From assembly GCF_017833295.1 (NCBI RefSeq), contig NZ_JAFIBW010000001.1, positions 3,238,001-3,302,000 of the forward strand: a stretch of 64,000 nt of DNA, given 5' to 3'. The notes beneath the pieces were generated by a model. That model worked only from the letters and a program-made list of their open reading frames with translations, ran no database searches and was not told the origin of the DNA. The position numbers were made by a program, and so were the translations under genes. Below, piece after piece: positions 4,653 to 53,348 of this stretch; position 1 is the first letter of the stretch; every line of letters begins with the position of its first letter. This DNA comes from Methylobacterium sp. PvR107 (GTDB lineage: Bacteria > Pseudomonadota > Alphaproteobacteria > Rhizobiales > Beijerinckiaceae).

Positions 4653-5009
4653 TCAGGGACAATAGGGCAGGAGCGAGCGGCCGAAGGGATCATCGACGCC
4701 CAGCGGCGGCGTGAAGCCGTAATAGCTCGGATGCGACAGGCCGTATTCGGATCCGACATAGCTCGGATCGTCCGGGGCGTTGGTGGGCACCGGTGCCCGC
4801 CGGGGCGTGCAGCCCACCGGCACCGCCCGCGTCCGGATGGCGTAGACCGGCCGGCGATCGATCCCGTCGCTGCGCGGGAAGAAGCGCGGGCTGCCGCTCA
4901 CCCCGGTTTCGGAGGCTCCGCGGACCTCGAGATCCGCCGCCGCGCCGGGACCACCGGTCAGCAGGGCGAGTGCGAGCACCGCCATCACCCCGCGCCCCAC
5001 GTTCCGCAT
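4653..5009 (-). CDS. Small secreted protein of unknown function
   Basis: 118 aa with a predictable Sec signal peptide (hydrophobic core VMAVLALALLTGG, cleavage near GAAA). The mature part is rich in Pro, Gly, Tyr and Ser, carries two Cys (one at the extreme C-terminus) and has no recognisable domain. It is followed by panC on the same strand with about 100 bp between. I do not recognise the family. Confidence 0.65.
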   Translation of the reverse strand: MRNVGRGVMAVLALALLTGGPGAAADLEVRGASETGVSGSPRFFPRSDGIDRRPVYAIRTRAVPVGCTPRRAPVPTNAPDDPSYVGSEYGLSHPSYYGFTPPLGVDDPFGRSLLPYCP

Positions 5010-5076
5010 GCCGGTCCCACCTCTCAGGAAGCCGCACCGTGCGGGAACGGGGTAAACGCGCCCTTACCCGGCCCGG

Positions 5077-5610
5077 CTAGGCGAGCGGGACGACCCGGGC
5101 GTCCAGCACCGCCACGAGGTCGCCCTCGGTCAGGCGGATCTGAAGGCCGCGGCCGCCGCCATTGACGTGGATCTCGGCACCCGGATCGCCCAGGGAGCCG
5201 GCATCGATCGCCGTCGGAAAGCTCCGCTTCTGGCCGAGCGGGCTGATCCCGCCGACATGATAGCCGGTCAGGCGCTCGGCATCGGCCGGTTTCAGCATCG
5301 CGGCGGCCTTGCCCGAGAAGGCGGCCGCGACGCGCTTCATCGCGACCTCCCTGTCGGAGGCGACCAGCAGGCAGACCGGGCGTCCATCCACCGCCGCCAT
5401 CAGGGTCTTCAGCACGCGGCCGGGATCGACGCCCAGCGCCTCCGCGGCCTGAAGGCCGATGCGCGGGGCATCCGGATCGTAGGCGTAGGTGTGGACGCTG
5501 TAGCGGAACCCGGCCTTGTCGAGGACCTGCGTCGCCCGTGTGATCTTGCTGGGCGCCTTCGCGGCGGTCTTCGCGGCGGTCTTGGCCATGGTCTGTCCGG
5601 TCTCAGGCAC
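5077..5610 (-). CDS. ybaK: YbaK-family Cys-tRNA(Pro)/aminoacyl-tRNA deacylase
   Basis: 177 aa. It is predicted to hydrolyse Cys-tRNA(Pro) formed by mistakes of ProRS. The YbaK/ProX editing fold is recognisable from K-T-L-M (residues 68-71), the LLVASDREVAMKRVAAA segment, GYHVGGISPLG and the GGGRGLQI segment near the end. The N-terminus is a Lys/Ala-rich tail; an alternative ATG lies at 5589. The ATG at 5610 overlaps the stop of the upstream beta-lactamase gene by 8 bp, so the two are probably translated from one transcript. Confidence 0.9.
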   Translation of the reverse strand: MPETGQTMAKTAAKTAAKAPSKITRATQVLDKAGFRYSVHTYAYDPDAPRIGLQAAEALGVDPGRVLKTLMAAVDGRPVCLLVASDREVAMKRVAAAFSGKAAAMLKPADAERLTGYHVGGISPLGQKRSFPTAIDAGSLGDPGAEIHVNGGGRGLQIRLTEGDLVAVLDARVVPLA

Positions 5611-40468: not shown

Positions 40469-40816
40469 CTACTGCGGCCCCTGCTTGGCAAATTCTGAAA
40501 GCACCCCGCGCAGCACCTTGAGCCGCGCGTCGTAGGCCGCGGTGAGGCAGGTCACGTCGGCGCCGCAGGTCCGGCGCTCCTGCAGCCACGCCTCCTGGTC
40601 GTCGCGCAGCTTGCCCTGTCCGCCCATCGGCAGCACGGCCTTCAGGATCTCGAACCGGGTCGCCATCTCGACGTCCCGGTCGTTGAGGGGCAGGTGCGCG
40701 CAGATGGCCTTCTCGTCGGGCGCTCCGGCCTTGTCGCAGGGAAAGCTCGCCGCGTAGGCCGAGGGACTGGACCCGAGGGGGGCGAGCAGCAGCAGGAGGA
40801 CGAGCGGTTTCGACAT
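40469..40816 (-). CDS. LprI/DUF1311-type periplasmic protein
   Basis: 115 aa. A signal peptide (VLLLLLAPLGSSPSAYA) is followed by a DUF1311 (LprI N-terminal) domain: SFPCDKAGAPDEKAICAH and QEAWLQERRTCGADVTCLTAAYDARL, with four Cys probably in disulfides. Some relatives inhibit host lysozyme; this cannot be claimed here. Confidence 0.82.
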   Translation of the reverse strand: MSKPLVLLLLLAPLGSSPSAYAASFPCDKAGAPDEKAICAHLPLNDRDVEMATRFEILKAVLPMGGQGKLRDDQEAWLQERRTCGADVTCLTAAYDARLKVLRGVLSEFAKQGPQ

Positions 40817-40898
40817 GGGCTCAGAACGAACCGGCCGGCGAAAGGCTCCCGCGCGGCGGCGGCGGCGGGAATCGGACCCGGATCACAGGATCCCGGGA

Positions 40899-41330
40899 TC
40901 AGAGGCCCGGCTTGACGATCGCCAGGATGACGATGCCGATCATCAGCAGCGTCGGCACCTCGTTGAGCACCCGGTAGAACCGGTGGCCGCGGGTGTTCCG
41001 GTCGGCGGCGAAATCCTTGACCATCCGGGCGAGCCAGCCGTGGATCCCTGACATCGCGAGCACCAGCACGAACTTCGCCTGCAGCCAGGGGCTCGCGTAG
41101 AAGCCGCTCATCCCGGCGAGGGCCAGCCCGAAGACCCAGGTGGCGATCAGCGCGGGGTTCATGATCGCCCTGAGCAGGCGGCGCTCCATCACCTTGAAGG
41201 TCGCCGATTGCGCCTCCGAGCCCGGCGGCAGGCTCGCGTGGTAGACGAACAGCCGCGGCAGGTAGAGCATCCCGGCCATCCAGGCGATCAGGCTGATGAC
41301 GTGGCCGGCCTTGATCCAGTCGTACAGCAC
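40899..41330 (-). CDS. hemJ: Protoporphyrinogen IX oxidase HemJ
   Basis: 143 aa from a GTG at 41330, giving the usual VLYDWIKAGHVISLIAWM N-terminus. Four membrane segments. The conserved His of KAGHVIS and the Lys of LQAKFVLVL are present, as is the LNEVPTLLMIGIV C-terminus. It is only 7 bp after the hemE stop, so the two form a haem-synthesis operon. Confidence 0.92.
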   Translation of the reverse strand: MLYDWIKAGHVISLIAWMAGMLYLPRLFVYHASLPPGSEAQSATFKVMERRLLRAIMNPALIATWVFGLALAGMSGFYASPWLQAKFVLVLAMSGIHGWLARMVKDFAADRNTRGHRFYRVLNEVPTLLMIGIVILAIVKPGL

Positions 41331-41337
41331 AGGCGGC

Positions 41338-42483
41338 TCAGCCCCGCAGCCGCGCGAGCATGCGCTCGACATGGGCCACCGGCGTCTGCGGCGTGATGCC
41401 GTGGCCGAGGTTGAAGATGTGCGGCAGGCCGTCGGTCGCCGCCAGCACCGCGTCCACCGCCGCGTCCAGGGGGGCGCCCCCTTCGATCAGCGTGTCCGGA
41501 TGCAGGTTGCCCTGCGTCACCATGGTGGCCGGCACCCGCGCCCGCAGGGCCCTCAGGTCCACGCCCCAATCGACCCCGACCGCGTCGGCGCCGGTTTCCG
41601 GCACCACCCGGGCATGGCCGTCGAGGCCCGAGCCGCGGGCGAACACGATGATCTTGGCCCCCGGCACTTTTTCGCGCACGCCCGCGATCATCCGGGCGAT
41701 CGGCCTCAGCGACCAGCGGGTGAGGGCATCCGCGGACGCATCCGGCAGGGCGCTCTCGGCGACGTCGCCAACGGGCTCGACCGTGCCGCCGGAAGCCGAA
41801 ACAGCACGCGGCAGGGTGCCGGCATGGGATTCGAAGATCTGCACCGCGTCGGCGCCGGCCTCGAGCTGGCGCACGAGGTAGTCGGTCTGCACGGTGACGA
41901 GGCGGTCGATCAGGGAATCGACCAGGGCGGTGTCGCCCTCGGCCAGCGCCCGCGCGGGGGCGAGGTCCGGGGTGCCGCGGCCGCCGATCATGTAGCTCGC
42001 CACCGTCCAGGGGGCGCCGCAGAAGCCGAGCAGCGTGGTCTCGTCCGGCAGTTCGGCGCGCAGTCGCGTCACCGTCTCGAAGACCGGCGCGAGATGGGTC
42101 ATCACCGCCGGGTCGCCGGCCTCGCGCAGCTGCGCGAACGCCTCGCGGCCGTCGAGCGGGTCGAGGCGCGGGCCCTCGCCCTCGACGAAGCGCACGTCCT
42201 GGCCGAGCGCATGCGGGACGACGAGGATGTCGGAGAACAGGATCGCCGCGTCGAAGCCGAAGCGGCGGATCGGCTGGAGCGTCACCTCGACGGCGAAGTC
42301 CGGGCTGTAGCAGAGGTCGAGGAACGAGCCGGCTTCCGCCCGGGTCGCCCGGTATTCCGGCAGGTAGCGGCCGGCCTGGCGCATCATCCAGGCGGGCGGC
42401 GGTCCGATCGCTTCGCCCTCGAGGACGCGCAGCACCTTCCGCTCGGACGTCTTCCGCCCGGACCCGCGCTCCGTCCCCGTCAT
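41338..42483 (-). CDS. hemE: Uroporphyrinogen decarboxylase
   Basis: 381 aa from the ATG at 42483 (an ATG at 42495 is also possible; longer extension would run into the origin region). It makes coproporphyrinogen III. The [16 protein letters not shown] motif with the substrate-binding Arg, [20 protein letters not shown] and the closing [11 protein letters not shown] are all present. In many alphaproteobacteria hemE marks one side of the replication origin. Confidence 0.97.
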
Positions 42484-42958
42484 GGTCGTTCCCATCCCGT
42501 CTCCGTCATCCCGCATGCCCGTCGGCGCGCGTCCTGTCGAGTCGCGGCGCGCCGATCCCCACACAGGCCCCTTCGAAAAGAAAAGAGAGATTCTAGGACT
42601 CTGTTTTTTCTATTGGGGGGCCGAATCGCGGGGGCACAAAAGCGTCCACAGGCGGTCCCCGACGCCGCGCCGTTAACGAGGCTTTAAAGGATTCGCTCCA
42701 TCTTGCGAGAACCGGATGGTCCGACAGCACCTTGGCAACGCCGAGTCGTGTACGGGCCCCGGTTGCGTCCCGGATTCTCCCAGAGGCCCGGATTCCGCGC
42801 GTCCCGCCCGCCTGCCTGTGAACGGCGGAGTCGATAGCGCGCGAGAGAATCGGCCTGGACCGGCCCGGTCGGGCATCCTATCCACATTCATCGACTCCCC
42901 TGGCGGCCGGCGGTGGATAACGTTGGTGCCGCGCCAGTCGACCGCAGAGGCGATCGGA
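42484..42958. other. oriC: Candidate chromosomal replication origin (oriC)
   Basis: 475-bp gap between divergent hemE and the PPSR gene, the same gene pair that borders Caulobacter oriC. It holds an AT-rich tract (42571-42616), DnaA-box-like sites CTATCCACA (42878-42886) and its reverse form GGTGGATAA (42912-42920), a weak box at 42642-42650, and one full CtrA-type site (42673-42687). It also holds eleven GANTC sites beginning at 42539, 42589, 42597, 42623, 42690, 42743, 42773, 42791, 42828, 42847 and 42893. Seen: all motifs. Inferred: origin function. dnaA itself is not in this window. Confidence 0.7.
42673..42687. promoter_or_regulatory. CtrA-type binding site TTAA-N7-TTAA
   Basis: Exact match TTAA-CGAGGCT-TTAA, 3 bp before a GANTC site (42690). 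It may repress initiation, regulate hemE or PPSR, or both. Confidence 0.65.
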
Positions 42959-43789
42959 ATGGGCCGCAGCTACTTCCACCTCCACCTCGTCTCCGATTCC
43001 ACCGGCGAGACGCTGATCAATGTCGGGCGCGCCGCGGCCGCGCAGTACGAGGGCGTGTCGGCGATCGAGCACGTGTACCCGCTGGTCCGCTCGGCCGCGC
43101 AGCTCGACCGGGTGATCTCGGAGATCCGGGCGGCGCCGGGCCTCGTCCTCTACACCCTGGTCGGCGGCGACCTCGGCGAGCGGCTGGAGGACGTCGCCCG
43201 CGAGACCGGCTCGCCCTGCCTGTCGGTGCTGCGGCCGGTCCATGACCTGCTGCGCGCCTATCTGGGCGCCGAGACCACGGCGCGGCCCGGCGCCCAGCAC
43301 ATGCTGAACGCCGAGTATTTCAAGCGCATCGACGCGATGAACTTCACGCTGGCCCACGACGACGGCAACCTGCCGGACGATCTGGAGGAGGCCGACGTGA
43401 TCCTGCTCGGCGTCAGCCGGACCTCGAAGACGCCGACCTCGATCTACCTCGCCAATCGCGGCCTCAAGACCACGAACCTGCCGCTGGTGCCGGGCATGCC
43501 GCTGCCGCCGGCGATCGAGCGCGCCCGGAAACCCCTCGTCGTCGGCCTGTTCGCCTCGCCGGAGCGGATCGTGCAGATCCGCCAGAACCGGCTGTCCAGC
43601 CTCAACGCCGACGAATCCTCCCTCTACGTCGACCGCTCGGCGGTGGCGGACGAGATCACGATGTCGCGCCGCCTGTTCGTCAAGAACCGCTGGCCGACGA
43701 TCGACGTGACCCGCCGCTCGATCGAGGAGACCGCGGCGGCGATCGTCGACCTCCACCGCGACCACCGGCTGAAGTTCATCGCCGATTGA
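42959..43789 (+). CDS. Pyruvate,phosphate dikinase/PEP synthase regulatory protein (PPSR/PDRP)
   Basis: 276 aa. Bifunctional ADP-dependent kinase and phosphorylase that switches PEP synthase or PPDK off and on. The family signature is [14 protein letters not shown] at the N-terminus and the P-loop-like [15 protein letters not shown] near residue 155. Starts further upstream (to 42716) would read through the origin motifs, so the ATG at 42959 (MGRSYFHLH) is chosen. In Caulobacter the ortholog is the first gene beside the origin. A role in PEP supply for the serine cycle is an inference. Confidence 0.93.
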
Positions 43790-43794
43790 GTCCC

Positions 43795-43903
43795 GGGTTC
43801 CCAAAGGGCTCGGCCCCCTGGCGGAGGCCAGGGGCGGCGCCCCTGGGTCTATGCAGGGTTCCACCCTGCACCCGCGAAAGGTCTCGACCTTTCGAAACCG
43901 GGA
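43795..43903 (-). repeat. Mosaic multi-hairpin repeat, copy 2
   Basis: Inverted relative to copy 1 at 26987-27110. Read on the minus strand: GGTTTCGAAAGGTC...GACCTTTCGCGGGTGCAGGG...CCCTGCA, then a CCAGGGGC/GCCCCTGG stem, then CCCTTTGGG. It lies between the ends of PPSR and crcB. Confidence 0.85.
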
Positions 43904-43907
43904 CGTC

Positions 43908-44297
43908 TCAGCTGCCGCTCAGGACCGCCCGCACCAGGGCGAGGCCCGCCACCAGGCCCACGAGGCCGGCGGCGACCGAGGCCACGACGTAGAGGGCGGC
44001 CATGCCCGTCTCACCCCGCTCGTACAGGCTGATCGCGTCGAGCGAGAAGGTCGAGAAGGTGGTGAAGCCGCCCAAGATTCCGGTGGTCAGGAACAGCCGC
44101 GTCGGGTGGCCGGCCGCGCCCCGCAGGGCAAAACCCTCGGCGAGCACGCCCATCAGGAACGAGCCCAAAACGTTGATGATCAGCGTGGCCAGGGGAAAGC
44201 CGAGGCCCGGCAGCAGCCGCGCCACCGCGACGTTGACCCCGTGGCGGGCCCCGCCGCCGAGCCCGGCCCCGAGGATGACGATGAGGGTGTTGATCAT
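43908..44297 (-). CDS. crcB: Fluoride channel CrcB (Fluc)
   Basis: 129 aa, four membrane segments; a dimeric fluoride exporter. GAGLGGGARHGVN, the LIINVLGSFLMGV segment with the conserved Asn, and TTGILGGFTTFSTFSLDAI (the Phe-box and Na+-site region) are present. A fluoride riboswitch precedes it. Confidence 0.96.
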   Translation of the reverse strand: MINTLIVILGAGLGGGARHGVNVAVARLLPGLGFPLATLIINVLGSFLMGVLAEGFALRGAAGHPTRLFLTTGILGGFTTFSTFSLDAISLYERGETGMAALYVVASVAAGLVGLVAGLALVRAVLSGS

Positions 44298-44384
44298 GTC
44301 TGCCCTTCCTGTTCGGTCGGGCGGCCGCGTCGTGTCGCGGCTTCGGCGCATGGCCCCACCGCGGACGGCGGAGGGCACGCCCGT

Positions 44385-44470
44385 TCGGTAGGAGCCATCA
44401 GCCCGGCAGGGCGGCCAGGAGTGGCGACCGCCAGGCGGTTGTCGGGGAGCTCCATCCCCATCGCCGACAG
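44385..44470 (-). ncRNA. Fluoride riboswitch (crcB motif)
   Basis: On the minus strand the leader reads GGCGATGGGG, then a short hairpin (GGAGCTCC), ACAACCGCC, and about 30 nt later GGGCTGATGGCTCCTACCG. These are the conserved 5' GGCGATGG block, the central AACCGCC pseudoknot strand and the 3' CTGATGGCTCCTAC block of the fluoride-sensing class. It ends about 88 nt before the crcB ATG at 44297, as expected for a cis regulator. Confidence 0.92.
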
Positions 44471-44550
44471 GCTTAGCGCAGGATGCGCGGCAGGGAAATC
44501 GGGTTTTCCGAACGCCCGCGCGCCGCGAGACGATGTTCACCGAGCGCCTG

Positions 44551-44660
44551 TCCCTCCCCCTTGTGGGGAGGGATGGGGGTGGTTCGGGATCGCGCGTTCC
44601 GGTGCCGCTTGCGCCACCCCCGCCTCCAACGCCTCCCCACAAGGGGGCGGGGAGCGGGGT
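44551..44660. repeat. Composite CCCTCCCC palindrome
   Basis: CCCCCTTGTGGGGAGG (44556-44571) and its exact complement CCTCCCCACAAGGGGG (44632-44647) form a 16-bp perfect outer stem. It lies upstream of the riboswitch, just after the end of the 169-aa gene. Confidence 0.8.
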
Positions 44661-44682
44661 CCGGAGGGAGGCCCGCGCCGGC

Positions 44683-45192
44683 TCAGCGGGCGAAGGCGAA
44701 GTGGCTGCGCTGCTCGATCTGGGCGGCGTAGAAATCCTCGATCACCTCGCGGACCACCTCGGCCAGCTCGTCGCCCCGGTGCTCGTCGAGCTGGATGTCG
44801 CTGCCGACCGTCCGGCCGATCGCGCAGCTCGCGGCCCCCGGTACGAGGCGCTCGTTGTAGCGCTGGTTCAGGCCCGAGACCGAGATGTAGTTGCTGCCGC
44901 CGAGTTCGGGCCCGTACTTGATCTTGATCTTCTGCTCAGACTCGGTGCCGCGCAGCTGCGCGCAGAGGCTGATGAAGTTGTCCTGATCGATCTTGGCCTC
45001 GAGCCCGGTGATGCTGCCGTGGACGTTGTCCTCCTCGTTGAGGACCTCGGCCATCAGGTGCAGCACCCCGACCACCGGTTCCAGCGCCCGCGCGCCGTCC
45101 TCCAGGAGCTTCTTGCGGAAGTCGTTGCTGCGGGCATCGGCCTCCTGCAGCCGCGCGCGGAACCTGTCCTTGACCTCGTTCACGCGTGCCAT
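44683..45192 (-). CDS. Cytosolic protein of unknown function downstream of the lanmodulin homolog
   Basis: 169 aa, no signal peptide. The N-terminal 60 residues are helical and charged (VKDRFRARLQEADARSNDFR), followed by a mixed beta part (KIKIKYGPELGGSNYISVSG) and an acidic helix near the end. Codon use is typical of this genome. I do not recognise the family. It lies 180 bp downstream of the lanmodulin-like gene on the same strand, with a marked inverted repeat between them. Confidence 0.75.
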   Translation of the reverse strand: MARVNEVKDRFRARLQEADARSNDFRKKLLEDGARALEPVVGVLHLMAEVLNEEDNVHGSITGLEAKIDQDNFISLCAQLRGTESEQKIKIKYGPELGGSNYISVSGLNQRYNERLVPGAASCAIGRTVGSDIQLDEHRGDELAEVVREVIEDFYAAQIEQRSHFAFAR

Positions 45193-45309
45193 CGCGCGCC
45201 TCCCTGGTGGTTCAAGCCGATGCTTTGATGCTCGGACATTGAGAACCTACGGAGGCCCGACAGATGATGCAAGATCGTGCAAAATATTGATGCCTGATTA
45301 TAACTTGAG

Positions 45310-45351
45310 CCGTTGCACAGGAATAATACTTGCTCACGAACTGTGCAACGG
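45310..45351. repeat. 11-bp perfect inverted repeat in an AT-rich spacer
   Basis: CCGTTGCACAG and CTGTGCAACGG are separated by 20 bp that include AATAATACT. It lies 22 bp after the stop of the lanmodulin-like gene and about 120 bp before the 169-aa gene. It could be a terminator stem or an operator. A second short repeat (TGCA-N6-TGCA, near 45267-45280) is next to it. Confidence 0.75.
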
Positions 45352-45372
45352 TGTCCGTCCGGGCGGCCGGGC

Positions 45373-45804
45373 TTACTTGAGGAGCTGCAGCAGGCTCCGT
45401 CCGGCCGGGGTCTTGAGTTCCTTGGCGTCGAGCGTGCCGTCGTTGTCGGGATCGGCAGCCTTGAAGCGCTGCTCGACCAAGGCGAGGTATTCCTTGCGGT
45501 CGAGGGTGCCGTCGGAATCGGGATCGGCGGCCTTCAGGTCCTTCTTGCTGAGCCGGCCCTTCAGTTCCTTGGCGTCGACGGTGCCGTCCTTGTCGGTCTC
45601 GGCGGCGTCGAAGACCTTGCCGGCGGCGGCCTGCGCCTCGGCCAGATCGATCGTGCCGTCATGGTCGGTGTCGACCGCTTTCAGCGTGCGCTCGGTGCCG
45701 GCGGACCGGGCCAGGGCCGAGGCCGGCAGGGCGGCCGGGACGGCCAGGCCGAGGGCGAGGGTCGCGGCCAGCGCGCGGGCATGTGTGGTCAGGATCGCGG
45801 GCAT
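45373..45804 (-). CDS. lanM: Lanmodulin-family EF-hand protein (lanthanide-binding)
   Basis: 143 aa, ATG at 45804, with a signal peptide (LAATLALGLAVPAALPASALA) and a mature part of about 110 residues. Four EF-hand loops: D45-E56 (DTDHDGTIDLAE), E69-E80 (ETDKDGTVDAKE), D94-E105 (DPDSDGTLDRKE) and D118-E129 (DPDNDGTLDAKE). Spacers are 12, 13 and 12 residues, as in M. extorquens lanmodulin and half those of calmodulin-like proteins. All loops keep Asp at position 9, a lanmodulin trait. The position-2 Pro is present only in loops 3 and 4, and loop 2 begins with Glu. The segments DAKELKGRLS and SPAG/TPAG-like near the end also match lanmodulin. Periplasmic Ln(III) binding is expected; Ca(II) selectivity cannot be excluded for loops 1-2. 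Confidence 0.87.
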   Translation of the reverse strand: MPAILTTHARALAATLALGLAVPAALPASALARSAGTERTLKAVDTDHDGTIDLAEAQAAAGKVFDAAETDKDGTVDAKELKGRLSKKDLKAADPDSDGTLDRKEYLALVEQRFKAADPDNDGTLDAKELKTPAGRSLLQLLK

Positions 45805-45929
45805 GCGCGAAATCTCCAGTGGCAATCAGCGTCGGCAGCCCAAGCCGTCATGCGGTGTGCCGTTCCCGGAGGCGCGTTCACAAGCTGACGATCATCAACG
45901 GCGGGCAGGGCGGGGCCGCGCTCCGGCAA

Positions 45930-45971
45930 CATCCCGGCGCCCGGGCTCCGCTGCGCCCCCGGGATGACGGA
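45930..45971 (-). repeat. Diverged copy of the CCGTCAT...CCGGG palindromic repeat
   Basis: Read on the minus strand: CCGTCATCCCGGGGGCGCAG, CGGAGCCCGGG. It lies between the lanmodulin-like gene and the upstream BatD-like gene. Confidence 0.65.
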
Positions 45972-46037
45972 GCGACCGTTCCCGCCTCGGAAAGCGGAAG
46001 GCGGTTCCCCTTTCGCTGCCGATCCCCGCTCCCGTGA

Positions 46038-47486
46038 TCAGCGCGCGGGGCCGTCCAGCGGCGCCAGCCGCTCCGGCCCGGGCGGCCCGGCGACTCGTTC
46101 CGGGCGCGACAGCGCGCGGGCCAGGGCCGGCAGGTCCGGGACGGGAGCGCCCGAAGCTCCGAAGACCGATCGGTCGAGCGCCGCCAGGGCTGCCGCCACG
46201 TCCGGCCGCCCCCGCCAGATCCCGGCGAGGTCCGGGGCGTCCCGCATCGCCGCGTCCAGCGCGGCGCGGAACCCGGCCGGATCGCCCGACCGGGCCGCCG
46301 CGCGCAGGGCCCGGCGGGCGGGAGCGGACAGGCGCAAGGCCGGCCGGCCGAGACCGAAGCCGATCAGCGCCAGGCCCAGCCCGAAGGCGGCGAGCGCCGC
46401 GGCGGCGGTCACGAGCGGCGAGGGGATCGCGGGCGGCGCCCGGTCGGCCTCACGATCGGGCAGGCCGCCGCCGATCTGCCGGGCCGGGATCTCGGTCTCG
46501 CGCATCGTCCGGGTGGCGGTGTCGAACCACGGGATCGCGATGGCGTCGAGGGGGATGATCTCCGGCACGCCGGGCTTCACGTCCCACTGGTAGGTGGCCC
46601 GCGCCACCGGTCCGGAGGGGGTCAGCAGGGTCTCGCGGGTGACGGGGCCCGCGAAGGTGATGATGCCGCGGGTGCGCATCACCGGCCGCGGCGGCAGGCC
46701 TTCCGCCACCATGCCCTGCGCCTCCAGGGTGACGATCCGGCGGGCGGTCTCGCCGACCTTGATGGTCTCGGGGTCGGGGCTCCAGGAATCCGTGATCGCA
46801 ACGTCCTTGGCGGGCAGCCACCAGGGCTCCTTGGCGTCGGGACCGCCGGTGGGCTCGGTCCATGGCGCCACCGGGAACGGGATCGGCTTCGAGCGCACCT
46901 CGACCAGCCGCCGCTCGCCGACATCGTTGACCGTCAGCTTGTGGATGAACGGCTCGATGGTGAATTGCCCGGCATGGTGCGGGAACACCGCGACGGTGCG
47001 GTCGAACGCGATGGCGCTCTGGCCGTCGGGGAGCTTGGTCCGGCTCCAGTGGTCGCGGCCGAGCTGGGTCCACGAGAAGTTGGCGAGCGAGGGCTGCACC
47101 ACCTCCTCCAGCAGGATCGGCTGCTTGTAGACCCCGTGGATCTTCAACAGCACCATCTCGCGGGAGAAGGGCGCGCTGTTGCCGTTCAGCTCCGCGGTGA
47201 CCGTGAGGGTGAGGTCGCCGGGCTCGATCTCGGCCTGGGCGGGGAGGGGGTTGAGGGCGAGGACCAGGGCGAGGTGCCAGACGGGCGTCCCCCGCCCCCC
47301 TCGGCGGGGGAGGGTACCCTGCGGAGCAGGGGGGGAGGGGGGCAGCGCGACCGTGCAGGTCTCAGCGCCGGTCGTGACCTCTCCGGAAGCGTCGCTCCCC
47401 TCGCCCGACCGCCTTCGGGGGTCCCCCTCCCCCGCAGAGGGGGGAGGGGGGCGGCGCATCTCGGAAACCCCAAAACAACTCACCAC
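46038..47486 (-). CDS. BatD-like membrane protein (last gene of MoxR operon)
   Basis: 482 aa. After a hydrophobic segment (WHLALVLALNPLPAQA, residues about 70-85) comes a large periplasmic part of beta-rich BatD type (IEPGDLTLTVTAELNGN, VYKQPILLEEVVQPSL, a segment IVTLEAQGMVAEGLPP), a membrane helix near residue 345 and a cytosolic tail. Residues about 12-66 are encoded by a dispersed repeat, which places a Pro/Arg-rich tail ahead of the leader. The start overlaps the stop of the TPR gene by 7 bp. BatD proteins act with vWA proteins in MoxR systems. Confidence 0.8.
   Translation of the reverse strand: MVSCFGVSEMRRPPPPSAGEGDPRRRSGEGSDASGEVTTGAETCTVALPPSPPAPQGTLPRRGGRGTPVWHLALVLALNPLPAQAEIEPGDLTLTVTAELNGNSAPFSREMVLLKIHGVYKQPILLEEVVQPSLANFSWTQLGRDHWSRTKLPDGQSAIAFDRTVAVFPHHAGQFTIEPFIHKLTVNDVGERRLVEVRSKPIPFPVAPWTEPTGGPDAKEPWWLPAKDVAITDSWSPDPETIKVGETARRIVTLEAQGMVAEGLPPRPVMRTRGIITFAGPVTRETLLTPSGPVARATYQWDVKPGVPEIIPLDAIAIPWFDTATRTMRETEIPARQIGGGLPDREADRAPPAIPSPLVTAAAALAAFGLGLALIGFGLGRPALRLSAPARRALRAAARSGDPAGFRAALDAAMRDAPDLAGIWRGRPDVAAALAALDRSVFGASGAPVPDLPALARALSRPERVAGPPGPERLAPLDGPAR
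47288..47453. repeat. Mosaic palindromic repeat translated within the BatD-like gene
   Basis: Contains the shared core GGGGGAGGGTACCC, then GCGGAGCAGGGGGG, and closes with a CCCCCTCCCCCGCAGAGG/GGGG stem. The same core and order occur at 51901-52077 in the DUF58 gene of the same operon. Confidence 0.85.
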
Positions 47487-48400
47487 GGGTTGCTCCCGGC
47501 GGGAATCGCGGTGCCGGCCTCGACCCGGCGGGTCTGCTCGGCGCGCAGGCGCAGCTTGAGATAGCGGCCGGGATCGTCCGGCAGGGTCTGGAGCCAGAGC
47601 CGATCCGGGCGAATCTCGTGTGCCTCGAAGCTCTTGGTCACCCGGCGGACCTCGCGCTCGGGCGCCTCGGCCACCATGGCGGCGCCGCCGCCGGTGCGGC
47701 CGCGGCCGGCCGCGTCGCCGGCCGAGCCGCGGGCCTGGCCCTTGCCGGCGTCGATCGATTGCTGCTCGGCCTTGCCGCGGCGGGCGACCTTGCTGTTGCC
47801 CGGCAGCGACGCGCTGGCGTTGGATTCCTTGTTGCCGGCCAGGCCCTCGCCGCTGGAAGCGGCGTTGATGTCGTTGTTCTGGTCCTGGTTGGCGGTGTTG
47901 TTGTAGCGGGCACCGTACTGGGCGGTGCCGTTGGCGATGCCGCCGCCGGGGCCGCGGTCGATCACCTCGGCCTGCATCCGGGCGATCAGCGAGCGGTTGG
48001 CCTGGGCGTCGGCGTCGCGGGGGTTGAAGCGCAGGGCCTCGTCGTAGGCCGCGAGGGCGCCGGCGAGGTCGCCCGATTTCGCCAGCGCGTTGCCGAGATT
48101 GTAGCTCGCCCGGCGGCCGCCGGTGCGGAACAGCGCGATCGCCGCGTCGTAGCGCCCGGCTTCATAGAGCGCGGCGGCGCGCCAAGCCGGATCGTCGAGC
48201 ACCTGCGCGGCGAGGCCCGGCAGGCCCAGGCCCATCAGCAGCCGCCCGAAGCCGGTGCGCGGCTGCGAGACGGCGAGCAGCGCCAGGAGGCCGAGGCTGG
48301 CGAGCGCGAGCCCGGCGAGCCGGGCGCGGCGCCGCCAGCGCGGCGGCAGGCCGGCCCGGAGCGGGGCGGCGAAGCCGGGATTGGGAAGGGTCAGCCGCAT
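47480..48400 (-). CDS. TPR membrane protein of MoxR operon (BatC-like)
   Basis: 306 aa. One membrane helix near residues 27-45, then TPR units (AALYEAGRYDAAIALFRTGG, YNLGNALAKSGDLAGALAAY), an Asn/Gly/Ala-rich low-complexity stretch (NNTANQDQNNDINA) and a basic C-terminal domain (RLWLQTLPDDPGRYLKLRLR) that matches BatC/vWA-TPR proteins. Between the vWA gene and the BatD-like gene, with a 13-bp gap upstream. Confidence 0.8.
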   Translation of the reverse strand: MRLTLPNPGFAAPLRAGLPPRWRRRARLAGLALASLGLLALLAVSQPRTGFGRLLMGLGLPGLAAQVLDDPAWRAAALYEAGRYDAAIALFRTGGRRASYNLGNALAKSGDLAGALAAYDEALRFNPRDADAQANRSLIARMQAEVIDRGPGGGIANGTAQYGARYNNTANQDQNNDINAASSGEGLAGNKESNASASLPGNSKVARRGKAEQQSIDAGKGQARGSAGDAAGRGRTGGGAAMVAEAPEREVRRVTKSFEAHEIRPDRLWLQTLPDDPGRYLKLRLRAEQTRRVEAGTAIPAGSNPW

Positions 48401-48413
48401 CGCGCGCTCCTCA

Positions 48414-49343
48414 TCAGGCGCTTCTGCGGAACAGGATCAGGGCCGGCACGGCCGCGAGCAGCAGCAGCCAGCGCCCGAGATCCGCGTAGGCCAGCACGCC
48501 GTAGCCGCCGGCCGCGAGGTGCTGACTGAGCCCGGCCCCGACCGCGTCGAGCACCGGGCCGGGGCTCGCGATGTCGGCGATCGTGCCGCCGCCGGATCGC
48601 GCGAGGGCGTCCAGCGCCGTCCGGTCGGGCTTCGGCGCACCGGGCGGGAGCGGCTTGTCGGCGGGGACGAACAGGGCATGGAGGCGCCAGCCGTGCTCCG
48701 CGATGGCGCGCGCCTCGCGGGTCGCGGCCTCGCCGATGCCGTCGCCGTCGCTGATCAGCACCACGTCGGCCGCGACCACGCTGGCCTCCGCGAGCGTACG
48801 GCGGGCGAGCGCCAGGCCGCGCTCCGGATGGGAGCCGCGGTCCGGCACCGTGTCGGCGTCCAGGGCGAACAGGGTGGTGCCGAGGCTGTCGCGGTCGGTG
48901 GTGGGCGAGGCGGCGAGGTAGGCGTCGCCGGCATAGACGACGAGCGACACGGCCCGGGTGCCGGCGGCCTCGGCCACCGCGGCTGCGGCCTGCCGGACGC
49001 CCTGGAGGTTGCCGCCCTCGGCGACCGAGCGGGACAGGTCGACGACGAGCACGGTCTCGTCGAGGTTGCGGAAGGTGCGCCCGTCGGCGCGTTCCACCGC
49101 GGGGCCGGTGAGCGCGAGGGCGATCAGCCCGGCCGCGAGCGCGGCGGCGCGGTTCGCCTGCCGCCGCCCGCCGAGCACCGCGCCGGTCCGGGCGAGATGG
49201 GCCATCAGCGCTGGATCGACCGCCCGGGCCCAGTCGCCGAGCGGCGCCGAGCGCCACGCGGCGCGCAACGCCAGCAGGGCGACGACCGGGATCGCCAGGA
49301 ACCACCAGGGGCGCAGCAGCGCGAAGGCGTCGAGGAGGCTCAT
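48414..49343 (-). CDS. vWA-domain membrane protein (BatB-like)
   Basis: 309 aa from the ATG at 49343. Membrane helices at residues about 12-28 and 67-82 and at the C-terminus flank a von Willebrand A domain with MIDAS DLSRS (VLVVDLSRSVAEG) and later Asp (LISDGDG). A periplasmic metal-dependent protein-binding domain is expected. Confidence 0.84.
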   Translation of the reverse strand: MSLLDAFALLRPWWFLAIPVVALLALRAAWRSAPLGDWARAVDPALMAHLARTGAVLGGRRQANRAAALAAGLIALALTGPAVERADGRTFRNLDETVLVVDLSRSVAEGGNLQGVRQAAAAVAEAAGTRAVSLVVYAGDAYLAASPTTDRDSLGTTLFALDADTVPDRGSHPERGLALARRTLAEASVVAADVVLISDGDGIGEAATREARAIAEHGWRLHALFVPADKPLPPGAPKPDRTALDALARSGGGTIADIASPGPVLDAVGAGLSQHLAAGGYGVLAYADLGRWLLLLAAVPALILFRRSA

Positions 49344-49373
49344 CGGGCCGGTCCGCAGAGCGCGCGCGCCGTG

Positions 49374-49408
49374 CGCCCTCCCCCCCCTGCGGGAGAGGGG
49401 GGAGGGCG
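49374..49408. repeat. CCCTCCCC palindrome between the two vWA genes
   Basis: CGCCCTCCCC...GGGGAGGGCG stem around CCCCTGCGGGAGAGG-type loop, in the only sizeable gap (124 bp) of the operon. Confidence 0.7.
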
Positions 49409-49467
49409 AAGCGTCGTGGGCCAGCAGCATGTCGCGACCCGCTCGGTCGGCGTAAATCCGTCCCGCA

Positions 49468-50505
49468 TCACGCCCCCCTCCGGCTGGCGAGCAGCGCCGC
49501 GACGGCCAGCAGCGCCAGGGCAGCCGGCCAGGGCCAGAGGTCCCGGCGCAGCGGCAGGGGCGGCGCCAGGGCGCGGCCGCCCTCCAGCCGGTCGATGGAA
49601 TCCGCGACCCGGACGAGGTCGTCCGTGGTGCGGACCCGGAACGCCTCGCCGCCGCTAGCCTGAGCCATGTCGCGCAGGGTCTCGGTGTCGACCACGTCCT
49701 GCTCGCCGTCGGCATCGGCCATGTCGCGGGGCCCCAGCGCGATCGTGTAGACCTTGATGCCCAGCTCCCGGGCGAGTTCTGCCACGTCCTTGGGGGCGGT
49801 CTGCCCGGCATTGTTGGCGCCGTCCGAGAGCAGGATCACGGCCTTCGCGGCCTTCTCGCCGGGCTTGCTCCCGGATGCGGCCTCGCCCCCGGCATCCCGG
49901 GGATCGAGCCGCCGCAGGGCGAGCCCGAGGCCGTCGCCGATGCCGGTGGAGCGGCCGCTGATGCCGATCGTGGCCTCGTCCAGCGCCCGGGCGACCGCCG
50001 CGGTGTCGAAGCTCGGGGCGGCGGCCACGTAGGCCTGGTCGGCGAAGATCACGAGGCCGATCCGGTCGCCGGCCCGGCGCCGGATGAAGTCGGTGCCCAC
50101 GCGCTTGACCGCGGTGAGCCGGTTCACGGTCTCGCCGTCGAGGGCGAAGTCGCGCCGCTCCATGGAGCCCGACAGGTCCATGGCGATCATGATCTCGCGG
50201 CCCGAGGCTGGGAGCGCGGCGGCCGGCAGGACGAGGCGCGGACCACTCAGCGCCGCCACCAGGGCGATCCACAGCGTCCAGGTCAGCAGGGCCCGCCGCC
50301 GCCCGCGAGCGGCCAGATCGGCGCCGGTGCGCCCGTCGCCGACCAGCGTGCCGGGCACGCGGAGCGCCCCGCTGCCGCCCTCCGGCTCGGGTGGGATCAG
50401 GCGGGCGGCCAGCAGCGGCAGGGGCAGGGCCAGCAGCGCCCAGGGCGCGGCGAGGTCGAAGGCCGACAGGAGAGCGCTGAGCCAGGCGGGCAGGAGGGCG
50501 GTCAT
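49468..50505 (-). CDS. vWA-domain membrane protein (BatA-like)
   Basis: 345 aa. N-terminal helices, a vWA domain with complete MIDAS (AMDLSGSMERRDF, Thr in GRSTGIGDGL, Asp in LLSDGANN) and a C-terminal helix (WPAALALLAVAALLA). The VKRVGTDFIRRRAGDRIGLVIF segment is the usual BatA pattern. It is adjacent to the DUF4381 gene (7-bp gap). Confidence 0.88.
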   Translation of the reverse strand: MTALLPAWLSALLSAFDLAAPWALLALPLPLLAARLIPPEPEGGSGALRVPGTLVGDGRTGADLAARGRRRALLTWTLWIALVAALSGPRLVLPAAALPASGREIMIAMDLSGSMERRDFALDGETVNRLTAVKRVGTDFIRRRAGDRIGLVIFADQAYVAAAPSFDTAAVARALDEATIGISGRSTGIGDGLGLALRRLDPRDAGGEAASGSKPGEKAAKAVILLSDGANNAGQTAPKDVAELARELGIKVYTIALGPRDMADADGEQDVVDTETLRDMAQASGGEAFRVRTTDDLVRVADSIDRLEGGRALAPPLPLRRDLWPWPAALALLAVAALLASRRGA

Positions 50506-50512
50506 GCGGCGA

Positions 50513-50986
50513 TCATGCCCGCAGCCGTCCGATCAGGCGGCCGAGCTCGGCGTCGAGGGCATCGAGGTCGGGATCCTGCCGCCGGTACAGGCCGTCGGCG
50601 AGCACCCGTCCGGCACCCCGCGTGAAGAAGTCGGTCCTGAACAGCCCGTCGAGGCGGGCGGCCCAGTCCGCGCCCGTGGCGCCGGCCTCGGCATCGCCGC
50701 CGAGGGTCCGGCCGAGGCGACGCAGCAGGCGCGCCTGGGCGACGAGGCGCGCCTCCGGGTCGAGGCCGCGGCTGCGGGCGAGTTCGGCCAAAGCCGCCCG
50801 GCGGAGGCTGGCCCCTGCGCGGCCGCGCCCGTAGCGCACCAGCCCGACCAGCAGGGCGGCGAGGAAGCCGAGGGCGGCCGCCGCGATGATCTCGCCCTGC
50901 ACGGCGCCCGCGGCGCCGCCGGGCAGGTGCAGGCCGCGGAGCTGGTCGAGGGTCAGCGGCGTCTCGGCGGGCGTGACGGGATTCAT
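50513..50986 (-). CDS. DUF4381 membrane protein of MoxR operon
   Basis: 157 aa. A proline-containing N-terminus (TLDQLRGLHLPG), one membrane helix (IIAAAALGFLAALLVGLV) and a basic helical cytosolic part (RLLRRLGRTLGG). DUF4381 proteins sit between DUF58 and vWA genes in Bat-type operons. In methanol-oxidation clusters MxaA holds a similar place. Confidence 0.78.
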   Translation of the reverse strand: MNPVTPAETPLTLDQLRGLHLPGGAAGAVQGEIIAAAALGFLAALLVGLVRYGRGRAGASLRRAALAELARSRGLDPEARLVAQARLLRRLGRTLGGDAEAGATGADWAARLDGLFRTDFFTRGAGRVLADGLYRRQDPDLDALDAELGRLIGRLRA

Positions 50987-51010
50987 CGGGAGGGACCGCC
51001 GGTTCCGGCC

Positions 51011-52099
51011 TCACAGCACCGCATCGAGGCGCTCCATCAGCGGCGCGTAGGCCTCCGGCCCGGTCTCGACGTCGAGGCGCACGCCCGCGATGCCCCGGCG
51101 GGCATAGTCGGCGAGCCGGGCCTCGGCGGAGTCCCCCGATGCGCCGGCCGTCGGCAGCGCCGTGCCGCGGCGGCCATCGGCGAGGGCGAAGGGGTAATAG
51201 CCCGGCGGCCGGGTCCGCTCGAAGGCGTCGCTGACCAGGATCAGCCGGATCGCGATCCGCTCGGCGAGCAGCGTCAGCAATTCGTCGAAGCCCGGGCCGG
51301 GATCGTCGAGGGCGCTGGCGATGACGAGGTGGCCGCCGGCGGGCAGCAGGCTGCGGGCGAGGCCGAGCGTCGCCTCGAGAGGCGGCTCCGCGCCGGATTC
51401 GGCCCCGAGGGCGTCGGCATGGGCCTGGGCCAGCGCCCCGGTGACCGCGATCATGGCGCGCTCGCCGCCCGCCGGCCGCAGCACGGTCGGCGCGCCCGCC
51501 GAGGCCACCGCGAGGCCGACCCGGCCGCCATCGGCCGCGACCCGCCAGCCGAGCAGCGCCAGGGCCTCGGCGGCCGCGACCGAACGGAGCGCCCGGCGGG
51601 TGCCGAACAGCATGGAGGATCGGAAATCGGCGAGCAGCACCACGGCGCGGTCGCGCTCGTCGTGGTGGGTGCGGACGTGCAGCTGCCCGGTGCGGGCGGT
51701 GGCGTTGCGGTCGATGAAGCGGCGGTCGTCGCCCTCGGACCAGAGCCGGACATCCTCCGGCTCGGAGCCGCGCCCGCGGCGCCGTGTGACGATGCCGCCG
51801 GGCAGGCCCGCCAGCGTCCGGGTCGCGGGCGCGGAGCCGCGCCGGGCGAGGTGGCGCAGGCCCATCAGCGCCTCGCCGGAGAGGTGGATGCCGCCGCTGA
51901 TCCCTCCCCCCTCTGCGGGGGAGGGTACCCCGCGGAGCAGGGGGGAAGAGGCGAGCGCCGTTTCAGGCACGGTCGCGCCTGATGGAAAGGCCGCAGCCTC
52001 ATTCGGCACCGTCGCGCCCCGCTCCCGACCCCCGCTCACGCGGGGGCCACCCGCTCCCGTGGCGGGGGGAGGGGATCGGCGGCGCGCGAAGCCGAACAC
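51011..52099 (-). CDS. DUF58 protein of MoxR operon
   Basis: 362 aa from a GTG at 52099, two bases after the MoxR stop. The DUF58 core is GSEPEDVRLWSEGDDRRFIDRNATARTG... (residues about 115-140) and the vWA-like VVLLADFRSSMLFGTRRAL. The leader of about 70 residues is encoded largely by a dispersed repeat. An internal ATG at 51865 (MGLRHLARR) would give a 284-aa form without it, and the true start is therefore uncertain. Confidence 0.8.
   Translation of the reverse strand: MFGFARRRSPPPATGAGGPRVSGGRERGATVPNEAAAFPSGATVPETALASSPLLRGVPSPAEGGGISGGIHLSGEALMGLRHLARRGSAPATRTLAGLPGGIVTRRRGRGSEPEDVRLWSEGDDRRFIDRNATARTGQLHVRTHHDERDRAVVLLADFRSSMLFGTRRALRSVAAAEALALLGWRVAADGGRVGLAVASAGAPTVLRPAGGERAMIAVTGALAQAHADALGAESGAEPPLEATLGLARSLLPAGGHLVIASALDDPGPGFDELLTLLAERIAIRLILVSDAFERTRPPGYYPFALADGRRGTALPTAGASGDSAEARLADYARRGIAGVRLDVETGPEAYAPLMERLDAVL
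51901..52077. repeat. Mosaic palindromic repeat translated within the DUF58 gene
   Basis: Same core as the copy at 47288-47453 (GGGGGAGGGTACCC, then GCGGAGCAGGGGGG), same orientation, bounded by CCCTCCCC and GGGGGGAGGGG stems. It codes for residues about 8-66 of the DUF58 protein. Confidence 0.85.
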
Positions 52100-52101
52100 C
52101 G

Positions 52102-53115
52102 TCAGAGCGCCCGTACCCGCTGCACCAGCTCGCCGACGAGCCCCCGCGCGGTCCTGCCCTCGGCGGCCGCCCGCCAGGTCAGGCCGATGCGGTGGGAGAG
52201 GGCGTCGCGGGCGAGCTCGGTGACATCCTCCGGGATGACGTGGTCCCGGCCGCGCAGCCAGGCCCGGGCCTTGCCGGCCATCATCAGCGCCAGGGTGCCG
52301 CGCGGCGAGGCCGGGTGCTCGATCATCGCCCGCAGGTCCGGGGCGGCCGCGTCGGTGCGGGTCGCCGCCACCAGCCGGACGAGGTAGTCCTTGAGCGCCG
52401 GCGACACGTAGGTGGCGAGCGCGGCCTCCCGGGCGGCGCGCACGTCGGCCAGCGACAACCGCATGGTCATGGCATCGACATGGTGGGTGATCTCGCCCTC
52501 GACCAGGTCGAGGATCGCCCGCTCGGTGGCCTCGTCGGGCATGTCGACCACGACGTGGAGGAGGAAGCGGTCGAGCTGCGCCTCCGGCAGCGGGAAGGTG
52601 CCGGCATGCTCGATCGGGTTCTGGGTCGCCACGACCATGAACGGGTCGGACAGCCGATGGGTGGTCCCTGAGACCGTCACCTGCCCCTCGGCCATGGATT
52701 CGAGCAGCGCCGACTGCACCTTCGGGGGGGCGCGGTTGACCTCGTCGACCAGCACGAGGGCGTGGAACAGCGGCCCCGGCAGGAACTCGAACGTGCCGCT
52801 GTCCTGCCGCCAGACGGTGGTGCCGGTCAGATCGGCCGGCATCAGGTCCGGCGTGCACTGGATGCGCGCGAAGGAGCCGTCGAGCCCGTCGGCGAGCCGC
52901 TTGACCGCGCGGGTCTTGGCCAGCCCCGGCGCGCCCTCGATCAGCAGGTGGCCGCCGGTCAGGAGCCCGATCAGCAGGCGCTCGACGAGGCCGGCGCTGC
53001 CGATCAGGCCGCGCTCCAGCCCCTCGCGCAACGCCATGACGCGGCCGTGCAGATCCGCATCCGGGAGGCTCTCGGGCCGGCGTTCGGCAAGGGCCCCGCT
53101 CAGCATCCCACTCAT
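52102..53115 (-). CDS. moxR: MoxR-family AAA+ ATPase
   Basis: 337 aa from the ATG at 53115. Walker A is GAPGLAKTRAVKRLA (an AAA+ variant of GxxGxxKT), Walker B VLVDEVNRAPPKVQ, sensor 1 VVATQNPIEHAG, and the arginine-finger region LPEAQLDRFLLH. MoxR proteins are chaperone-like AAA+ ATPases for protein complexes with metal cofactors. First gene of the operon, divergent from mgtC. Confidence 0.95.
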   Translation of the reverse strand: MSGMLSGALAERRPESLPDADLHGRVMALREGLERGLIGSAGLVERLLIGLLTGGHLLIEGAPGLAKTRAVKRLADGLDGSFARIQCTPDLMPADLTGTTVWRQDSGTFEFLPGPLFHALVLVDEVNRAPPKVQSALLESMAEGQVTVSGTTHRLSDPFMVVATQNPIEHAGTFPLPEAQLDRFLLHVVVDMPDEATERAILDLVEGEITHHVDAMTMRLSLADVRAAREAALATYVSPALKDYLVRLVAATRTDAAAPDLRAMIEHPASPRGTLALMMAGKARAWLRGRDHVIPEDVTELARDALSHRIGLTWRAAAEGRTARGLVGELVQRVRAL

Positions 53116-53348
53116 GCGGCGAACGATCCGACGCGGATCGAATCCGCTGCCGCGGCCGTTTCCCGGGCCATCGTGTGGGCCGTGTGCTGCATCCTGCACG
53201 TCTCCTCGGCCGGGTCCCGAATTCTTAAGGGATCCTCAGGCTCTTGCCGGTGTGCCCGCTGCCCGGTGCGGCCGTCAATCCCGCTTCGGACACGCTGTCC
53301 GGTCCGGGCCGGGCCATGGTGTCACGGTTCCGTCACCTCCCCGCTCCC

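Follow-up and report, generated by a model that had tools for sequence, protein, structure and literature searches.

Does the short EF-hand gene at positions 45373..45804 of the 64,000-nucleotide stretch of Methylobacterium sp. PvR107 DNA analysed here (the window) encode a true lanmodulin (LanM), and do its mixed metal-binding loops set it apart within this lanthanide (Ln)-binding family? A preliminary description, made from the letters of the window, had seen a divergent LanM homolog. Our analysis indicates that the protein is very probably a true LanM, one of two found in the genome, which would reside in the periplasm, fold on Ln and buffer or pass on Ln(III). The gene lies on the minus strand, a point absent from the preliminary description, and runs from an ATG at 45804 to a final codon ending at 45376; a longer start, a TTG at 45825, is possible, but a GGAGA motif, a candidate ribosome-binding site, stands 8 bases ahead of the ATG. 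The gene and its parts are as follows.

45373..45804, minus strand: LanM paralog gene, 143 amino acids, ATG start, stop at 45375-45373; 174.7 bits on the NCBIfam LanM model NF053806 (cut-off 135)
45709..45804, minus strand: probable signal peptide, residues 1-32; by eye, basic residues and then a hydrophobic stretch to ALA-RS, with cleavage after ALA
45376..45708, minus strand: mature four-EF-hand domain, 111 residues
45637..45672, minus strand: EF loop 1, DTDHDGTIDLAE, T at position 2
45565..45600, minus strand: EF loop 2, ETDKDGTVDAKE, E at position 1 and T at position 2
45490..45525, minus strand: EF loop 3, DPDSDGTLDRKE, P at position 2
45418..45453, minus strand: EF loop 4, DPDNDGTLDAKE, P at position 2

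The loops are separated by 12, 13 and 12 residues and all four carry Asp at position 9; position 2 is T, T, P and P, and loop 2 begins with Glu. The preliminary description had read each of these details correctly. The N terminus, as judged by eye, resembles a signal peptide, which would be in keeping with a periplasmic location.

The proposed likeness to the M. extorquens protein proved real, and it was not confined to segments: it spans the whole mature protein (phmmer E 4.6e-37 to PDB 6mi5), with 68/107 core residues identical to those of L050, a locus that groups with the M. extorquens LanM (Mex-LanM) in the tree. On the LanM model, nine other EF-hand proteins, from other taxonomic families of the same order, scored from 35.8 to 51.8 bits against 174.7 for the window protein, so that its resemblance to LanM is far beyond chance. 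By contrast, the model for XopAW-type EF-hand effectors (NF041410) gave 37 bits, below its cut-off of 120, which places the window protein outside that family. The predicted fold is of the LanM type, a three-helix bundle with peripheral EF sites, and among the matches listed in the structure comparison LanMs stood far above Ca sensors. The published hallmarks of the family are four EF-hand motifs in fewer than 200 residues, adjacent EF hands 12-13 residues apart and at least one EF hand with Pro at position 2, whereas in calmodulin-like Ca(II) proteins some 25 residues separate the EF hands (PMC10232371; this paper, PMC9260416 and PMC12603986 are drawn on in part throughout). The window protein has four loops in 143 residues, the LanM spacing rather than the calmodulin-like one, and Pro in loops 3 and 4.

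EF-hand spacing alone is not diagnostic of LanM, because another EF-hand protein, L180 (G051:C13), also has 12/13/12 spacing; it has no position-2 Pro, and its LanM-model score is only 47.8 bits. Conversely, the model can miss LanMs of the Hansschlegelia type (Hans-type), since L175 (G046:C7:80971-81345), with its NKDGDD and NPDGDT loops, scored 96 bits. The model scan covered ten of the 12 EF proteins (L176 and L185 were left out), L175 being the Hans-type one among the ten. A tree of 34 of the 108 rows of a first tree plus nine new ones (L176, L179 and L185 excluded) placed the very long-branched L180 among the LanMs when left free; a constrained LanM clade scored better and was not rejected. 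We took this phylogeny as support, not proof, of one LanM clade apart from ordinary EF-hand proteins. Generic EF-hand Pfam models missed both LanMs and were therefore unusable for counting the EF proteins of this genome.

The host genome is a single contig of 6.36 Mb, and the best match to the window LanM among named genomes was in M. fujisawaense, whose ortholog has T, T, T and P at position 2 of its loops. A second LanM was found in the same genome at G000:C1:4099391-4099774 (186.1 bits on the LanM model), and no match to a third was obtained up to E 10. The check for a canonical second copy with Pro in every loop came out otherwise: copy 2 has T, K, P and P at position 2. It shares with the window LanM the Thr of loop 1, the Glu that opens loop 2, the Pro of loops 3 and 4 and 67/107 core residues, and differs from it in the Lys of loop 2, its clade and its gene neighbourhood. 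Across the genus, a LanM above the family cut-off was present in 110/111 genomes; 55 of these 111 gave more than one match at E 0.001, and in at least 38 more than one match passed the cut-off. Only one of the 14 control genomes gave a match, below the cut-off.

To place the mixed loops, 152 loci yielded 149 four-loop proteins by pattern (L046, a broken gene, L076 and L149 failed), and deduplication left 105 distinct LanM cores, 83 of them from Methylobacterium in the wide sense; because the searches behind this set started from the window protein, its shares are a biased census. At position 2, 67 of the 83 carry T in loop 1 and 67 lack Pro in loop 2; Pro is present there in 71 cores for loop 3 and in 82 for loop 4. 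Loop 2 opens with Glu in 65. Pro confined to loops 3 and 4 was the commonest arrangement (53/83), and 14/83 had Pro in all four. With these counts, the mixed loops of the window LanM are common in the genus and not exceptional; they are also already in the literature. The protein is a paralog, as had been proposed, and not a divergent exception. As a side observation, loop 3 has Thr instead of Asp at position 9 in 19 of the 105 cores (e.g. L014, L099 and L117), with some from Methylobacterium and Bradyrhizobium among the 19.

Among the closest known systems is the LanM of M. aquaticum 22A, of the same genus, which likewise has four EF loops, Thr in loop 1, a residue other than Pro in loop 2, and a gene outside the lut cluster. 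At position 2 its first two loops have T and K; the protein takes up 3.65 La per molecule, becomes more compact when it does so and is induced by La (PMC9260416), and it is counted as having two prolines out of four (PMC12603986). The idea that two lanthanide-like and two altered sites divide by metal preference is therefore unsupported. The 22A protein differs from the window LanM in its Lys at position 2 of loop 2, its gene neighbourhood and the single lanM described in the portions of PMC9260416 drawn on; it was compared by description, the aligned locus being L104 of M. aquaticum DSM 16371 (T/K/P/P). Mex-LanM of M. extorquens AM1 (PDB 6mi5, 8fns) differs from the window LanM, with Pro at position 2 of all four loops, Asp first in loop 2 and, unlike the window gene, a position in the lut cluster (PMC9260416). 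Its loop 4 is a weak site (PMC10232371), and Pro-to-Ala substitution reportedly lowers its Ln-over-Ca selectivity with Ln affinity kept (PMC12603986, citing earlier work). The LanM of Hansschlegelia quercus (Hans-LanM, PDB 8dq2), 38% identical to the window LanM in structural alignment, has Asn at position 1 and Glu at position 9 of loops 1-3 and forms a metal-dependent dimer (PMC10232371), and it functions with one Pro out of four (PMC12603986).

In the larger tree, in which 53 of 105 inner branches were unresolved, the window protein fell in a clade of 14 cores and copy 2 in a separate clade of 20, each with a support of 99 in the Shimodaira-Hasegawa-like approximate likelihood ratio test. 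L075, L080 and L082 belong to the window clade as duplicates and were not counted separately; L076, window-type by synteny, lies outside the 14. All 20 cores of the copy-2 clade are T/K/P/P. In the window clade, 10 of the 14 distinct cores have lost the Pro of loop 3 and keep only that of loop 4, although these cores are related and do not amount to ten events; the window's own copy retains it. In three of the five genomes compared, Pro stands in loop 3 of the copy-2 protein but is absent from loop 3 of the window-type copy. The median ratio of nonsynonymous to synonymous substitution rates (dN/dS) within the window clade was 0.16 over 91 non-independent pairs, and loop positions 1, 3, 5, 9 and 12 stay Asp or Glu across the 14 cores; by these measures, the gene is under purifying selection. 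Among the open-licence papers searched, we found no report of same-genome LanM paralogs differing in proline count, and the apparent erosion of prolines in the window clade is a modest, testable addition to known LanM patterns.

By analogy with characterised LanMs, we infer that the window LanM would be an exported, periplasmic protein whose metal-free chain would pass into a compact four-EF-hand fold upon Ln binding, mainly through loops 1-3, and would buffer or hand on Ln(III) in a cell with the methanol-type dehydrogenases of Ln type detected here. All three pyrroloquinoline quinone (PQQ) alcohol dehydrogenases that pass the family cut-off have the WDYDG motif of the Ln type (matches at two further places fell below the cut-off), and MxaI, found in 19/22 other genomes of the genus searched, had no match in the host genome. 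Since MxaI gave no match and three WDYDG dehydrogenases are present, methanol oxidation in this strain looks like being of Ln type only, a picture that a plasmid absent from the assembly could alter. The Thr residues that replace Pro in loops 1 and 2 may, with less assurance, leave Ln affinity intact and discrimination against Ca(II) below that of Mex-LanM. Lower discrimination in LanMs of the window clade may follow because the Pro-to-Ala change reportedly has this effect in Mex-LanM, and a shifted Ln/Ca preference is accordingly possible for the window LanM.

Several observations weigh against this reading. In the sections of PMC9260416 drawn on, deletion of lanM in 22A caused no methanol growth defect, which leaves the physiological role unsettled even for a studied ortholog; aggregation and La deposits in the periplasm have been seen in 22A. 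No known lanthanide gene is among the ten neighbours scanned (40472-51940), and the window-type lanM is dispensable, because G016, whose flanking genes are the closest among the relatives compared, keeps only a remnant of it.

We weighed this reading against other explanations of the same protein. On one of them it would be a calcium-binding EF-hand protein of the ordinary kind, similar to calmodulin or XopAW, with a LanM likeness due to chance; EF-hand Pfam models do match it, and the source names seen among the 120 relatives listed are EF-hand, Ca2+-binding, hypothetical and, once, histidine kinase, with no lanmodulin among the shortened names shown. The gap between its LanM score and those of the nine other EF-hand proteins, the low XopAW score and the structure matches listed render this explanation scarcely credible, the 12/13/12 spacing being weaker evidence since L180 shares it. 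An extra copy that is redundant and close to neutral, retained chiefly through recent ancestry and adding only LanM dosage, is consistent with the frequency of two or more copies in the genus, the loss in G016 and another broken copy in G018; the low dN/dS and the retained Asp or Glu of the loops argue against it, and we regard redundancy as improbable. The broken copy in G018 (L187, G018:C1:4640534-4640907) has its parts in different frames, with an intact copy elsewhere in that genome.

It is likewise doubtful that the window LanM is on the way to a mixed Ca/Ln function, losing position-2 Pro loop by loop and with it some of its Ca rejection, the strict Ln role staying with the second LanM. 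The absence of Pro from loops 1-3 in 10/14 distinct cores of the window clade against 0/20 in the copy-2 clade, the three genomes in which only copy 2 keeps the loop-3 Pro, and the Pro-to-Ala effect in Mex-LanM all point that way. However, the window's own LanM retains the loop-3 Pro, Hans-LanM works with one Pro, the Mex-LanM mutation is to Ala and not to the Thr found here, and tagged 22A LanM, with Thr at position 2, shifts less with Ca than with La in gel filtration (PMC9260416). A division of roles in one periplasm, with the T/K/P/P lineage as a strict Ln binder and the window lineage shedding the Pro of its high-affinity loops to serve as an Ln buffer that discriminates less against Ca or exchanges faster, is a tentative proposal that we think unlikely to hold. 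If it did, the window clade would be a natural experiment on the position-2 Pro, which has been proposed to aid in excluding calcium. Because the clade offers natural LanMs with two or one Pro beside a two-Pro paralog in the same cells, the role of this residue could be tested without designed mutants. As a LanM, the window protein is an ordinary member of its family, and its value is comparative.

The surroundings of lanM in the window are listed below; the BatD-like gene was named by position (with only a sub-threshold DUF7939 match) and the MoxR-like gene by eye.

45805..46037, minus strand: intergenic region upstream of lanM, with the GGAGA ribosome-binding site and no sigma-70-like match on the minus strand
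46038..53199, minus strand: upstream neighbours, with DUF58, DUF4381, two VWA and a TPR protein (Pfam), and BatD-like and MoxR-like genes
44683..45192, minus strand: downstream neighbour of 169 amino acids, without a Pfam or NCBIfam match

The only promoter candidate for lanM, one weak sigma-70-like site, lies on the opposite strand and was discarded, and no terminator was found near the gene. The neighbours are reminiscent of mxaRSACKL. Membership in an mxa cluster for Ca-type methanol dehydrogenase was rejected, as the ten scanned neighbours gave no mxa-type NCBIfam name and MxaI went unmatched in the host genome. G002 carries MxaI as well as a window-type lanM, with about 97 kb between the two. 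A plasmid origin was also set aside, only 2 of 72,556 plasmid records matching, at 65-67% identity.

Where contigs reach, window-clade loci share the BatD-like gene, lanM, the 169-residue gene, CrcB, PpsR and a hemE-like gene (BatD-like and hemE are our own names; CrcB was not found in G002). The 169-residue protein was present in 18/61 genomes searched, all of this genus. A functional link between lanM and these neighbours was not retained: the 169-residue and TPR genes also lie close together in relatives without lanM, so the neighbourhood looks like backbone synteny. In G007, G020 and G030, the genes flanking the site are 166-178 bases apart with no lanM match between them. G016, the closest of the relatives by its flanks (98.8% for the 169-residue neighbour, 96.1% for the TPR neighbour) and also without MxaI, has a remnant (L165, G016:C15, about 4919-5380) between the BatD-like and 169-residue genes. 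Most of the gene is gone, leaving an exact 20-base piece near the lanM 3' end, a 65-base stretch 85% like the G025 gene and a decayed upstream region. The simplest reading of these loci is that lanM was gained once, at the root of the subclade, and subsequently lost in G016. Finally, an inverted repeat, CCGTTGCACAG ... CTGTGCAACGG, at 45310-45352 ahead of the 169-residue gene may be a regulator site; it is conserved, with few differences, in G016 and in the three other lanM-bearing loci compared, and in part in the others.
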